From Treponema sp. (GTDB lineage: Bacteria > Spirochaetota > Spirochaetia > Treponematales > Breznakiellaceae): 47,721 bases of DNA. Of this stretch, positions 41,655-47,553 are shown in pieces. The notes under the pieces were generated by a model. It worked only from the letters and a program-made list of their open reading frames with translations. It was not told the origin of the DNA and did not search any database. Both the position numbers and the translations under genes were made by a program. Numbering within the stretch: position 1 is the stretch's first letter; every line of letters begins with the position of its first letter. The stretch lies in NCBI GenBank assembly GCA_009781475.1, contig WQYB01000014.1, positions 1 to 47,721 of the forward strand. Reading direction: 5' to 3'.

Positions 41655-42815
41655 ATGAAAAAGATTTTATTTACAGTGTTAATAACAACTTTATTAACGG
41701 CAGCAGCATTTGCGCAAAACCTTACCTTTGGCGGTTATTTTAACAGCGGTTTAGGATTAATAACCCAGGGTGATAATGACGCGGAAATAAAAGCATTTGG
41801 CGTTGATTCAGAAAGTAATGGTTACAGATTCAGGTTAAATGCAAATTACCAGAATAACGACAGAACTTCCGGTTTTAGATTAAGGCTGCAATCACAGCGA
41901 ACATTGGCAGATACCGGCGGATATTTATCAATTCCTTTCGCTTACGGATGGATGAATTTCTTTGATAATATGATTAGCGTTTCCGGCGGCATTGTTGACG
42001 ACAGCGCATGGCAAACAGCCGATTGGTGGATTAACGATGATGTTGGTGAAGGTCTTGGATTACTTCTTAAAATAGCGCCAATTGAAGGACTTAACCTGGG
42101 AGCAGGCGCTTATGTAAACAGTCAAAGGGGCGGAGGCAATAACAATGTTCTTGCACTCCCAGTCGGAAGCAATGGAATTAAACTTGGTGAAGTAAAATAT
42201 GTCATAAGCGGTTCATATCTGATGAAAGATGTATTTTATATCGGAGCTTCGGCTAGAACAGAAAACAGAACAGGAAATCAGCAATCCGGTGCAATTATCG
42301 GAGATCTGCGTCTTTTAATGATAAAAGATTTAACTGCGGTTTTCGCATTTCAATTGGATAATCTTCAGGATTTTGATAATACCGGTACTATGACTTTTTC
42401 GGAAACATTCGCATTCAAATTAACTGATGATATAAACGTAGGGTTGAACGCTGCGCAATTCTTTTTCAATGTTGATAATAGAGATCCCGCATTTCTTTTC
42501 AATTTATGGGGTTCATATACAATGGGTAGTTTAGTGCCAAGAATTGATTTGGTTTACTTTATTAATGGTGAAAGCAATGGAGCAAATTCAGCCAATTCCA
42601 GCACACAATTCCATCGCAAAGGTTATGCCGCTCGTCAAGATCGTTCAGTATTCAGCGTTAGACCTTCATTAAGATTCAACCTTGACAGTAGAACACATAT
42701 CGAAATTGGCGATGTATTATATCTTGATTCCGCAAAAAATGAAGTTACTAACTGGGGTAATGAAAAATCCCTTTTTACCAATGTATTTTACATTGATGTA
42801 AGATGGAGTTTCTAA
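41655..42815 (+). CDS. Outer-membrane beta-barrel (porin-like) protein
   Basis: A 386-residue protein with a classical signal peptide (cleavage after AAAFA, Gln next). The mature part alternates short amphipathic strands with Gly/Asn turns and ends in IDVRWSF; the C-terminal Phe is the usual outer-membrane barrel signal. Segments such as GGYFNSGLGLITQG and FRLNANYQNNDRTSGFRLRL are typical of treponemal porin-like proteins. The precise family and cargo are not recognised. GGAGG lies about 7 nt before the ATG, and a strong terminator follows, so it is probably an abundant single-gene transcript. Confidence 0.82.
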   Translation: MKKILFTVLITTLLTAAAFAQNLTFGGYFNSGLGLITQGDNDAEIKAFGVDSESNGYRFRLNANYQNNDRTSGFRLRLQSQRTLADTGGYLSIPFAYGWMNFFDNMISVSGGIVDDSAWQTADWWINDDVGEGLGLLLKIAPIEGLNLGAGAYVNSQRGGGNNNVLALPVGSNGIKLGEVKYVISGSYLMKDVFYIGASARTENRTGNQQSGAIIGDLRLLMIKDLTAVFAFQLDNLQDFDNTGTMTFSETFAFKLTDDINVGLNAAQFFFNVDNRDPAFLFNLWGSYTMGSLVPRIDLVYFINGESNGANSANSSTQFHRKGYAARQDRSVFSVRPSLRFNLDSRTHIEIGDVLYLDSAKNEVTNWGNEKSLFTNVFYIDVRWSF

Positions 42816-42955: not shown

Positions 42956-43966
42956 ATGAAAACTGGAAAAAAAATATGTTTATTGGCTGTAGTATTGATT
43001 TTAATTTCGGCTCCGGTATTTTCACAATCCAATCCTATTGAAGATGTGCAAAAAGCGGTAAATTCTTTCTCAGCAGGAATGGCACAGGCAATGCCTTTTA
43101 ACTCAACAATCGGATTAAACTGGTCTGATCCTTATATCGGGCAGCTTTTAAGCGTACCTCCCAGTTTTGGCATAGGTGTTTCTGCGGGAGTAACATTTGT
43201 AAACCTTGATATAATAAATGGAATGATGGGAGAATTCGGCGATGCAGCGTCGATTGATATACCAATAGGTTTACCAATCCCGGGTTATACAATAGAAGGC
43301 AGAATAGGAGGATTTATCCTTCCTTTTGATATTGGTATTAAATTAGGCGTTCTGGATACTTCTAAAATGGGTATATTCGCTTCTCTTCCCGCAAATATAG
43401 ATTATTTACTTTTTGGTTTTGATGTCCGGTACTCGCTTTTGGACAGCAAAGTATTTCCAATTAAAGTATCTGTAGGAGCAGGTTTTAACCATTTAAGAGG
43501 CGGCATAAATACAACAATTGAAGGTGTTGCACAGCCAATTTCATTTGGATCAGGTTATACTCTTGATTTTACTGACCCAAATTTAGGACTTATTTGGCAA
43601 ACCAATGTATTGGAATTAAAAGCGCAGGTTTCATTTCCTGTTTTTATAATAACCCCGTATTTGGGAGCCGGTGTAAGTTATGCATGGTCAAAAGCAGGTT
43701 ACCAGGTAAAATCTGATATAACGTTTACACATCCCGGTGGTGCTACCGGTCTTAATAATGAAATTAAAAATTTATTAATGGGATTCGGCGTAACTAATGT
43801 TACAGATAAAGGCTTTGAATCGATTGTTAATGTATCGGACTGGAACATGAGATTTTACGGAGGTCTTTCCTTTAATTTATTTGTTATAAAAATTGACCTC
43901 ACCGGCATGTATAACGTAAGGGATTCAGGTTTCGGCGCTACAGTAGGACTTAGGTTCCAGCTATAA
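42956..43966 (+). CDS. Predicted outer-membrane beta-barrel protein
   Basis: A 336-residue protein with a signal peptide (cleavage near VFSQ). The body alternates Gly-rich amphipathic strands (FGIGVSAGVTFVNLDII, PIKVSVGAGFNHLRGG, PYLGAGVSYAWSKAGY) and ends GLRFQL, a barrel-like C-terminus. No function can be named; similar proteins are common in treponemes. CAGGAGG lies about 6 nt before the ATG. It is separated from the previous porin-like gene by a strong terminator. Confidence 0.75.
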   Translation: MKTGKKICLLAVVLILISAPVFSQSNPIEDVQKAVNSFSAGMAQAMPFNSTIGLNWSDPYIGQLLSVPPSFGIGVSAGVTFVNLDIINGMMGEFGDAASIDIPIGLPIPGYTIEGRIGGFILPFDIGIKLGVLDTSKMGIFASLPANIDYLLFGFDVRYSLLDSKVFPIKVSVGAGFNHLRGGINTTIEGVAQPISFGSGYTLDFTDPNLGLIWQTNVLELKAQVSFPVFIITPYLGAGVSYAWSKAGYQVKSDITFTHPGGATGLNNEIKNLLMGFGVTNVTDKGFESIVNVSDWNMRFYGGLSFNLFVIKIDLTGMYNVRDSGFGATVGLRFQL

Positions 43967-43991
43967 CACACAAACAGCGCTTCAGATATAT

Positions 43992-44106
43992 AATAAAAAC
44001 CCCCCAGGAAAAGGAGGTGAGGAAACCTGGGGAGTTGCTGTGGTACGAAGCCGCAAACTAAAGCATCCGCTGCATGGATAATAAAATCCATACCGTATCA
44101 TCAGTT
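43992..44106 (-). ncRNA. Candidate small RNA with anti-Shine-Dalgarno loop
   Basis: On the minus strand a promoter-like pair (TTGACC at 44141-44136, 17 bp, TATGTT at 44118-44113) is followed about 110 nt later by a terminator-like hairpin: stem CCCCAGG (44032-44026) / CCTGGGG (44008-44002), then GGTTTTTATT. The 17-nt loop holds TCACCTCCTTT, identical to the 3' tail of 16S rRNA. A second hairpin, ATGGAT/ATCCAT, lies near 44090-44073. No convincing protein is encoded. The alternative is a plus-strand 3'UTR hairpin with three AGGA motifs that could bind CsrA. Confidence 0.4.
44002..44032 (-). terminator. Terminator-like hairpin with C-rich loop
   Basis: A 7-bp GC-rich perfect stem (44002-44008 and 44026-44032) is followed on the minus strand by a T-rich run; there is no such run on the plus strand, so minus-strand termination is favoured. 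Confidence 0.6.
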
Positions 44107-44112
44107 AATACT

Positions 44113-44141
44113 AACATAGTAATTTTTGGATCACCGGTCAA
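44113..44141 (-). promoter_or_regulatory. Promoter-like sequence for the candidate small RNA
   Basis: TTGACC (44141-44136), exactly 17 bp, TATGTT (44118-44113). The -35 matches the TTGACC seen at the 4.5S RNA and rhomboid promoters. Confidence 0.45.
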
Positions 44142-44175
44142 GGACTTTCTTGACCTATCAAGCACTTTCTTGCCC
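44138..44175. promoter_or_regulatory. Two tandem palindromic sites between divergent promoters
   Basis: TCAAGGACTTTCTTGACC (44138-44155) and TCAAGCACTTTCTTGCCC (44158-44175) match at 16 of 18 positions, 20 bp apart. Each is also an inverted repeat of the form CAAG-N6-CTTG. They overlap the -35 regions of the candidate small RNA and of the transporter gene. Confidence 0.55.
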
Positions 44176-44198
44176 AATGCAAACTTTTATGCCATAAT
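44170..44198 (+). promoter_or_regulatory. Promoter of the transporter gene, leaderless spacing
   Basis: TTGCCC (44170-44175), 17 bp and CATAAT (44193-44198) end exactly 6 nt before the ATG at 44205. No Shine-Dalgarno is present. Confidence 0.5.
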
Positions 44199-44204
44199 AA
44201 AAAA

Positions 44205-45308
44205 ATGAATAAAGTATTTAAAACATTTCATTCCGGCCGTGGTGTTTTTTTCATGATGATCTTTGTTTGCGTAATATTCGCCATAACGGTATTAAAACTT
44301 GCCTCATCTGTAATCCTTCCATTTATAATCGCGGCATTTTTGGCGTTTGTAATGTTTCCGTTAATAAAATTGCTTGATAAACTCCGTATCCGCCGTACAA
44401 TATCAATAATTCTTGTAGTTATTATAATAGCCACCGGTATGTACGCCTTTGGGATGGTTCTCTTTACATCCGGCAGAATGATTATTGCTCAAATACCAAA
44501 CTATGAATATCGCTTTAATGAAATCTACAATTGGGTAGCAATGATGTTCGATCTTCCAAAAGATGAAAACTTAACTATATGGCAGAATCTTTGGGGGCAG
44601 GAAGGAATCCGCACATGGGTGCGTAATTTGACAATCTCTTCGTCTAACACATTTTTTAAATTTCTTTCCAGCGCAGTACTTGTAGTTTTATTTATGATAT
44701 TTATTCTTTTTGAAGCGGGCTTTTTTAAAGATAAATTGATAGCCGCATTCGAAAACCGCACAAGCCGTATTCACAGAATGGGAAATGAAATAATATCCCA
44801 GGTAACAAAATATTTGGCGGCAAAGTTTTTTATATCACTTGCCAACGGTATAATTTTCGCAGTTGCATTTCACATTGTCGGGCTTGAGTTCGCTATTGTC
44901 TGGGGAGTACTTCAGTTTTTATTAAATTTTATTCCAACTTTGGGAAGTATTGCAGCAGGGGCAGGCATATCATTATTTGCACTGCTTCAATTCTGGCCCG
45001 AACCCGCTCCTATCATCATTGTAATTATTATAATTTTGGTTGTTAACGTTGTATTATGCAACATTTTTGATCCAAAAATAATCGGCGACCATGTCGGAAT
45101 TTCTCCTTTGATAATACTTGTTTCTCTTTCTATCTGGGGATTTATTTGGGGATTTGCCGGAATGGTTTTAGCTGTTCCTATGACAGTTATTATTAAAATT
45201 GTATGTGAAAATATTCCAATACTGGAACCTGTATCAATACTATTGGGTTCACGTAAATCCATTCTGGCAAGAAAAGCGGAAAGTGAGAAAAACGAAACGT
45301 CATCATGA
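44205..45308 (+). CDS. AI-2E/PerM-family membrane transporter
   Basis: A 367-residue polytopic protein of the AI-2E transporter (PerM/TqsA) family. Paired N-terminal helices (VFFMMIFVCVIFAITVLKLA, VILPFIIAAFLAFVMFPLI) are followed by a soluble-looking central segment and a C-terminal set of helices with the family sequence FIPTLGSIAAGAG and ILVVNVVLCNIFDPKIIGDHVGISPL. Members export small molecules or act as antiporters; the substrate here is unknown. The start lacks a Shine-Dalgarno and lies 6 nt after a -10. It overlaps the DUF2156 gene by 4 nt. Confidence 0.9.
   Translation: MNKVFKTFHSGRGVFFMMIFVCVIFAITVLKLASSVILPFIIAAFLAFVMFPLIKLLDKLRIRRTISIILVVIIIATGMYAFGMVLFTSGRMIIAQIPNYEYRFNEIYNWVAMMFDLPKDENLTIWQNLWGQEGIRTWVRNLTISSSNTFFKFLSSAVLVVLFMIFILFEAGFFKDKLIAAFENRTSRIHRMGNEIISQVTKYLAAKFFISLANGIIFAVAFHIVGLEFAIVWGVLQFLLNFIPTLGSIAAGAGISLFALLQFWPEPAPIIIVIIIILVVNVVLCNIFDPKIIGDHVGISPLIILVSLSIWGFIWGFAGMVLAVPMTVIIKIVCENIPILEPVSILLGSRKSILARKAESEKNETSS

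Positions 45309-47479: not shown

Positions 47480-47553
<74 letters not shown>

Follow-up and report, generated by a model that had tools for sequence, protein, structure and literature searches.

A predicted small RNA of termite-gut spirochetes whose terminator loop copies the 16S rRNA anti-Shine–Dalgarno tail

Little is known of how spirochetes control their genes after transcription. We analysed a 47,721-nucleotide contig of a Treponema sp. (WQYB01000014.1; this whole stretch is referred to below as the window), whose minus strand carries, between a transporter gene and an exported-protein gene, a small RNA gene of termite-gut spirochetes that had not been catalogued before. The RNA itself is predicted; its terminator hairpin would expose a loop that copies the anti-Shine–Dalgarno (anti-SD) tail of 16S rRNA.

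The gene and its loop

An earlier reading of the locus (the original prediction) had described, on the minus strand, TTGACC and TATGTT separated by 17 bp, then about 110 nt with no convincing gene, then a GC-rich hairpin with a T-rich tail. This description held, and the features fall into place as a predicted RNA of ∼114 nt with a transcript start at about 44106 (Table 1). The GC-rich 11-bp stem followed by a U tract is what is expected of an intrinsic (Rho-independent) terminator, and the 150-nt RNA folds to -44.1 kcal/mol, against a mean of -33.4 for shuffled sequences (z -2.9). A coding role was rejected, because the longest closed open reading frame (ORF) of the homologous transcripts described below has a median of 8 amino acids (aa) and reaches 20 aa in only 5 of 48. 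A promoter and terminator of its own, short ORFs and a position that does not depend on the neighbours are the features of a trans-encoded small RNA gene, with the qualification that the promoter pattern is absent from 8 of the 48 loci. They point to a stand-alone gene with a sigma70-type promoter.

Table 1. Features of the locus, in window coordinates
Feature	Position	Strand	Basis
-35 box TTGACC	44136..44141	-	read from sequence
-10 box TATGTT, spacer 17 bp	44113..44118	-	sequence; relatives share layout
Predicted small RNA, ~114 nt	43993..44106	-	ends inferred from -10 box and U tract
5' arm, closing stem of 5' domain (CUGAUGAUACG)	44094..44104	-	pairing over 48 loci
3' arm, closing stem (CGUACCACAG)	44038..44047	-	folding and 48-locus pairing
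Terminator hairpin, 11 bp	43998..44036	-	terminator scan; 48-locus alignment
Loop, 17 nt, UUUCCUCACCUCCUUUU	44009..44025	-	sequence; relatives
TCACCTCCTTT, 11 bases equal to 16S rRNA 3' end (anti-SD)	44010..44020	-	compared with B. homolactica 16S
U tract (TTTTTATT)	43992..43999	-	sequence
AI-2E family transporter gene, divergent, upstream; outside RNA gene	44205..45308	+	Pfam PF01594
Exported-protein gene, convergent, downstream; strong SD, possible target	42956..43966	+	resembles DUF6588, below Pfam cut-off

The loop had also been said to contain the same 11 bases as the 3' end of 16S rRNA, and this too is correct. TCACCTCCTTT is present once in the window (44020-44010, minus), when 0.02 occurrences are expected in shuffled sequence, and it matches the 16S rRNA of Breznakiella homolactica, in which both 16S genes found end in GGATCACCTCCTTTCAC. 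A 16S gene was not found in the window's own assembly; the 11-base identity is established for a relative's 16S, because the B. homolactica ends were used. Its rarity in shuffles, together with its conservation in homologous loci, rules out a chance match.

Conservation, structure and distribution

A DNA search with 43900-44250 as the query (98 genomes, including its own) matched mainly the hairpin part, in genomes belonging to its own genus and family. We take the family to be Breznakiellaceae, as genome G465 of the family carries the Breznakiella locus at the same place and NCBI assigns Breznakiella to Breznakiellaceae, Treponematales. Fifty loci were read, 30 returned by the search, the window's included, and 20 fetched by place. 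The hairpin is present in 48 of them and absent from two weak matches (L049 and L050). All 48 hairpins carry the loop core ACCTCCTTTT, and the 17-nt loop UUUCCUCACCUCCUUUU is identical in 39; the variants were TTTCCTCACCTCCTTTT (n = 39), TTTCTTCACC... (n = 4), TTTTCTCACC... (n = 2) and three singletons. Although CACCTCCTTTTCC served to place the 48 hairpins, the loci themselves came from whole-region similarity. The predicted transcripts are 80-201 nt long (median 141.5), and in all 48 the core of the loop is predicted to be unpaired, with a mean probability of 0.996 and a minimum of 0.859.

A promoter pattern, TTGA[CT].-N16-18-TANNNT, lies no more than 240 nt upstream of the loop in 40 of the 48 loci; those without it are L003, L024, L038, L039, L040, L041, L043 and L047. 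A covariance model of the hairpin found it, at E ≤ 1e-5, in 135 of 195 Breznakiellaceae genomes and 48 of 56 genera, with two copies in some genomes. Hairpin loop and promoter are therefore both retained in relatives, and it was their loss there that the original prediction had named as evidence against the RNA. Among 20 lower-scoring covariance matches in the family, 19 have ACCTCCTTTT, one of them (L326) being a second, different locus within its genome; the exception, L321, reads ACCACCTTTT.

The pattern GGNTTYNTCACCTCCTTTTCC recovered at least 119 stretches in genome contigs, of which 115 pair at seven or more of eight stem positions. One of these 115 (L142, Chitinispirillaceae) passes the stem filter yet is a chance match without a U tract; TTGAC.-N16-18-TANNNT lies upstream in 100 of the 115. 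L097, L099 and L166 are likewise chance matches, while L150 is a genuine hairpin in a shifted register, so that 115 of the 119 stretches listed are real. These are titled Treponema, Spirochaetaceae, Spirochaetia or Spirochaetes, and include B. homolactica and a metagenome-assembled genome of Gracilinema caldarium.

Neighbouring genes vary between genomes, which rules out an untranslated region or attenuator of one neighbour. The upstream neighbour belongs to the divergent AI-2E transporter family in 22 of 48 loci and the downstream one to the convergent exported-protein family in 15; the others are diverse. The AI-2E transporter gene of the window has no SD sequence and carries a box like TATGNCATANT just before its ATG (window 44188-44198); [AG]TGNCATANT occurs in the region upstream of this gene in 20 of 22 relatives, which suggests that the transporter mRNA is leaderless.

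RNAalifold returned the terminator helix only; 7 of its 10 pairs have changed on both sides. Across the 48 aligned loci, 99.0% of terminator-helix cells are paired, compared with 89.8% for the closing stem, where 8 of 10 pairs show both-side changes. Together with an inner helix, the three helices have 92.7% of cells paired and both-side changes in 20 of 27 pairs; the 69 both-side cells were equalled in 0 of 500 shuffles. Controls with slid partners pair 39-53% of cells, compared with 92.7%, although this control is biased toward the closing and inner helices, as these were drawn by hand from the alignment. The pairs also indicate the strand. The terminator helix has 51 G.U cells, each of which would become A.C if the plus strand were transcribed, and a single A.C cell; the corresponding counts are 47 and 14 in the closing helix and 11 and 8 in the inner helix. 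With this asymmetry the promoter and U tract agree, and on all three sequence features we assign the predicted RNA to the minus strand.

Across the phylum, a tally at E ≤ 0.1 gave 178 of 392 genomes for the true model and 187 of 392 for a control model with the loop reversed. Because CCTCC and pyrimidines remain in the reversed loop, it matches many of the same hairpins; since it matches as many genomes, the loose tally is by itself no evidence. In family genomes the control is far weaker (8.6e-9 at the window's own locus, against 1.1e-15 for the true model). What we say of other families rests on loops read individually. We examined 78 of the 80 matches listed at E < 1e-4, leaving out ten family loci (L173-L182). 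CCTCC or CTCCTT lies in the hairpin in 75 of the 78, a biased rate, as the matches were selected by a model that itself contains the anti-SD. When two ordinary terminators from the own genome are added to the 78 for comparison, a further CCTCCTT is found upstream in 32 of 80, and GTAACY within 170 nt upstream in 33 of 80, 26 of these between -66 and -89, against a background of 4 in 180 windows. The two-part anti-SD layout recurs on different stems in several Spirochaetota families (f3, f13, f20, f6), and this is a stronger argument for other families than the count of 75. The hairpins of these families appear similar to the window's RNA; we mean likeness only and claim no shared descent.

Several arrangements in these matches are worth recording in their own right. 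A second kind of putative anti-SD RNA has GTAACY ∼73-83 nt before the model match, CCTCCTT in the linker and CCTCC in the terminator loop. It occurs in other Spirochaetota families and in one basal Breznakiellaceae genome (L185, L187, L188, L193, L200, L209, L223, L227, L228, L229, L239, L241, L242, L246, L247, L252 and L256); at E ≤ 0.1 the genome of the window has no match to it. Its GTAACY element resembles the -35 box of an alternative sigma factor, possibly of extracytoplasmic function (ECF) type. Four loci (L189, L195, L196 and L197) have two successive hairpins with anti-SD loops, the layout nearest to that of the alpha-r14 RNAs discussed below. In L214, L226 and L237, which belong to families f43 and f25, a tRNA-Lys/tRNA-Glu pair is followed directly by the anti-SD hairpin, placed as if it were the terminator of the tRNA operon.

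Predicted targets and mode of action

The original prediction had proposed a general sponge, able to pair with any strong Shine–Dalgarno (SD) sequence, and this was not supported. We examined 640 ORF starts from relatives, each placed at the first ATG, which understates SD use. GGAGG is found at 9.1% of them (2.7% of internal controls), and only 16.4% form a duplex of -10 kcal/mol or stronger with the loop (8.8% of controls). Because strong SDs are few, the RNA would select the strong-SD minority, with rpsU far ahead.

The own genome contains AAAGGAGGTGA three times: in the anti-SD RNA, in the rpsU leader and antisense to a 370-codon open frame. Its rpsU gene, with a TTG start, encodes the 67-aa ribosomal protein S21 (bS21; Pfam PF01165), a protein detected in 161 of the 195 family genomes, and AAAGGAGGUGAG in the leader (L051, C12:48092-48309, minus) is complementary to the loop sequence CUCACCUCCUUU at 12 of 12 positions. 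We read 50 rpsU leaders, the 30 best-scoring of those returned and 20 from more distant members, and every one of the 50 carries an extended SD (GGAGGTGA or GGGGGTGA). In these leaders (L327-L376) and in L051 it is mostly GGAAAGGAGGTGA, and the start codon behind it is usually TTG; in a few (L363, L364 and L376) the start codon or frame was called wrongly, which leaves the SD unaffected. The computed duplex between loop and leader has an energy of -17.7 to -22.4 kcal/mol in 50 of 50, while the best of 518 other ATG starts reaches -16.5 and the own genome's best other AGGAGGT start -16.8. As the RNA presents the same anti-SD as the 16S tail, it should compete for the rpsU SD, and our prediction is that rpsU is a target.

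Other partners would be weaker. When the 38 ORFs of the window, some of them spurious, are ordered by loop affinity, the gene at 42956 comes third (-10.3 kcal/mol) and that at 41655 fifth (-9.3 kcal/mol), and 29 of the 38 are weaker than -7 kcal/mol. For the convergent exported-protein neighbour, the duplex energy is -10 kcal/mol or lower in 8 of its 15 loci, which are related and not independent; in L007, L015 and L025 its start looks misplaced. AGGAG is found in 24.8% of signal-peptide-like ORFs and 12.5% of others, although among the 518 ORFs the signal-peptide-like ones have no clear excess of loop affinity (p = 0.075). Exported-protein genes may be weaker partners, and targeting of outer-membrane proteins is a lead. 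Own-genome genes with AGGAGGT before the ATG give duplexes of -11.4 to -16.8, one of them encoding a response regulator by Pfam; fragments that had been taken for FliL and ClpA among these genes have no Pfam match, and the identities were dropped.

We favour a trans-acting RNA that mimics the anti-SD and caps strong SDs, so repressing translation, with rpsU as the strongest predicted partner, and put the probability of this reading at about 60%. The RNA would be transcribed from its own sigma70-type promoter and act in trans. Its 5' domain would form a closed, fast-varying multi-stem cap, and its 3' terminator hairpin would present the single-stranded 17-nt loop that copies the 16S tail. The loop would pair with the few strong SDs of SD-poor genomes, and an SD so paired would keep the ribosome off, repressing translation of those mRNAs. 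What we show is the anatomy of the gene, its strand, structure and conservation, the predicted accessibility of the loop and the extended SD of rpsU; we infer expression, pairing with mRNA, the repressive effect and rpsU as a real target.

A number of observations weigh against this reading. No hairpin match was found in 60 of the 195 family genomes, some of them more than 90% complete. The extended rpsU SD is kept in 9 of 30 genomes in which no hairpin was found, though these genomes are incomplete, and the mean rpsU duplex is -19.3 with and without the hairpin alike. The 16S tail fits 44 of 50 rpsU leaders better than the loop does, although in the own genome the leader pairs slightly better with the loop. 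Because the SD is kept without the RNA and fits 16S better, 16S alone explains the rpsU SD. Loop variants show no co-variation with rpsU, and the genome of L321 (G533) retains GGAGGTGA; AGGAGGT-N3-10-ATG has 42 matches in the own genome, compared with 27 for the reversed pattern. Finally, much the same conservation would be left by a decoy for a protein, considered below.

A more specific proposal, which we hold only tentatively, is that the level of bS21 is set by this RNA acting as a free decoy of the ribosomal anti-SD. In these SD-poor spirochetes rpsU would carry the one extended SD, and the loop would vie for it with the 16S tail and thereby tune ribosome composition; in the wider phylum similar loops would occur, often with a second anti-SD and GTAACY.

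Among the remaining explanations, the one that survives best, though we consider it unlikely, is that the loop mimics the 16S 3' end and titrates a protein that binds that tail. The loop shares strand and sequence with the tail, and its U-rich flanks are also conserved; however, the bases 5' of ACCTCC vary (CTC, TTC, ATC, AAC, CCC or CTT before ACC), and the GGAU part of the tail is not copied while the SD-pairing part is kept. Slightly less credible is an abundant mimic that competes with the ribosome globally and lowers all SD-dependent initiation. A loop that reproduces 11 bases of the anti-SD and is predicted to be accessible, in an RNA with a consensus-like promoter, would suit such a role, but with few strong-SD starts there is little besides rpsU and a minority of genes to compete for, and one chromosomal gene would need to rival the numbers of mRNAs. 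We give equally little credence to a plain intrinsic terminator of an untranslated transcript, with a pyrimidine-rich loop of no regulatory role. The hairpin is a good terminator, but a passive loop should drift, and this one is near-invariant while its stem changes; nor do other terminators of the family have such a loop, for a scan of 796 kb of family loci gave 120 copies of the anti-SD hairpin and 201 other terminator-like matches, only two of which have CCTCC in the loop, one (L077) being the anti-SD RNA in the wrong register. The competing proposal of a plus-strand mRNA tail acting as a CsrA decoy has in its favour the AGGA motifs of the plus strand; of the three placed in one loop, two lie inside the loop and the third straddles stem and loop. 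It is very improbable, since 51 of 52 informative terminator-helix cells fit minus-strand pairing only, the promoter is on the minus strand, and the plus strand has no U tract and a neighbour that varies between genomes.

If the loop works as we suppose, a short RNA would be a near-exact mimic of the ribosome's mRNA-binding tail. A capping role for this RNA would offer a test of target choice by SD strength alone, with a bare anti-SD and no gene-specific seed, and the bS21-rpsU circuit, which governs SD use in SD-poor bacteria, would gain a small RNA.

Comparison with known systems

No known RNA family in Rfam 15 accounts for the locus, which would constitute a new one. At the gathering score, Rfam matches in the window are limited to a tRNA gene (47480-47553, plus) and a small bacterial signal recognition particle (SRP) RNA gene (RF00169; 41342-41440, minus). 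A search of 43850-44300 up to E 5 gave only sub-threshold U4atac and GNAS-AS1_3, and the sole match in 16 further loci was an SRP RNA. Helicobacter RepG, which targets a G-repeat, and the actinobacterial 6C RNA, which has C-runs, also pair through a C/U-rich loop in a terminator or GC hairpin; to our knowledge, neither exactly copies the 16S tail.

We found no description of this RNA in the open-licence literature on small RNAs of Treponema and other spirochetes, including T. denticola (PMC7160235), and an earlier account elsewhere is possible; the terms 'Shine-Dalgarno' and 'anti-SD' are absent from the main text of a paper on Borrelia RNA ends.

Streptococcal csRNAs are short intergenic small RNAs that carry an anti-SD and end in a terminator; translation starts are their presumed site of action (PMC3091779), and they are reported to target comC (PMC4507080). 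Their promoter is controlled by CiaR, their anti-SD lies in unpaired stretches between stem-loops, and 53 of 61 have CAU against the start codon (PMC3091779). In the window's RNA it is instead the terminator loop that carries the anti-SD; CAU is missing from the commonest loops (TTTCCTC..., TTTCTTC..., TTTTCTC...), and one of 48 has CAT before CACC.

For rpsU the parallel is with Bacteroidota, where bS21 controls its own synthesis by way of an extended rpsU SD; in Flavobacterium, ribosomes that lack bS21 have a freed anti-SD and favour rpsU (PMC9976891). The rpsU leaders of Breznakiellaceae look like these extended-SD leaders, which by analogy suggests bS21 autoregulation in this spirochete family as well. 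The available part of the Bacteroidota account describes no small RNA (PMC9976891), whereas Breznakiellaceae have a second, free copy of the anti-SD.

The nearest analogue, nearer than the C-rich loops of Gram-positive small RNAs, is the alpha-r14 or 'cuckoo' family, to which NfeR1 of Sinorhizobium meliloti belongs. NfeR1 silences mRNAs at the ribosome-binding site (PMC10746234), capping the translation start of ntrB and ABC-transporter mRNAs (PMC10746234; PMC3927594). These RNAs resemble the window's in size (123 nt), in having a sigma70 promoter and in carrying an ultraconserved anti-SD loop on variable stems; they differ in having three or four hairpins, each with CCUCCUCCC, and in coming from another phylum, as RNAs of Alphaproteobacteria (PMC10746234; PMC3927594). 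The loop UUUCCUCACCUCCUUUU of 39 of the 48 loci contains no CCUCCUCCC. Some other Spirochaetota loci have two anti-SD loops. The window's RNA is thus no member of alpha-r14: it has a single anti-SD loop, carried by the terminator itself, and reads ACCUCCUUUU as in the 16S tail.
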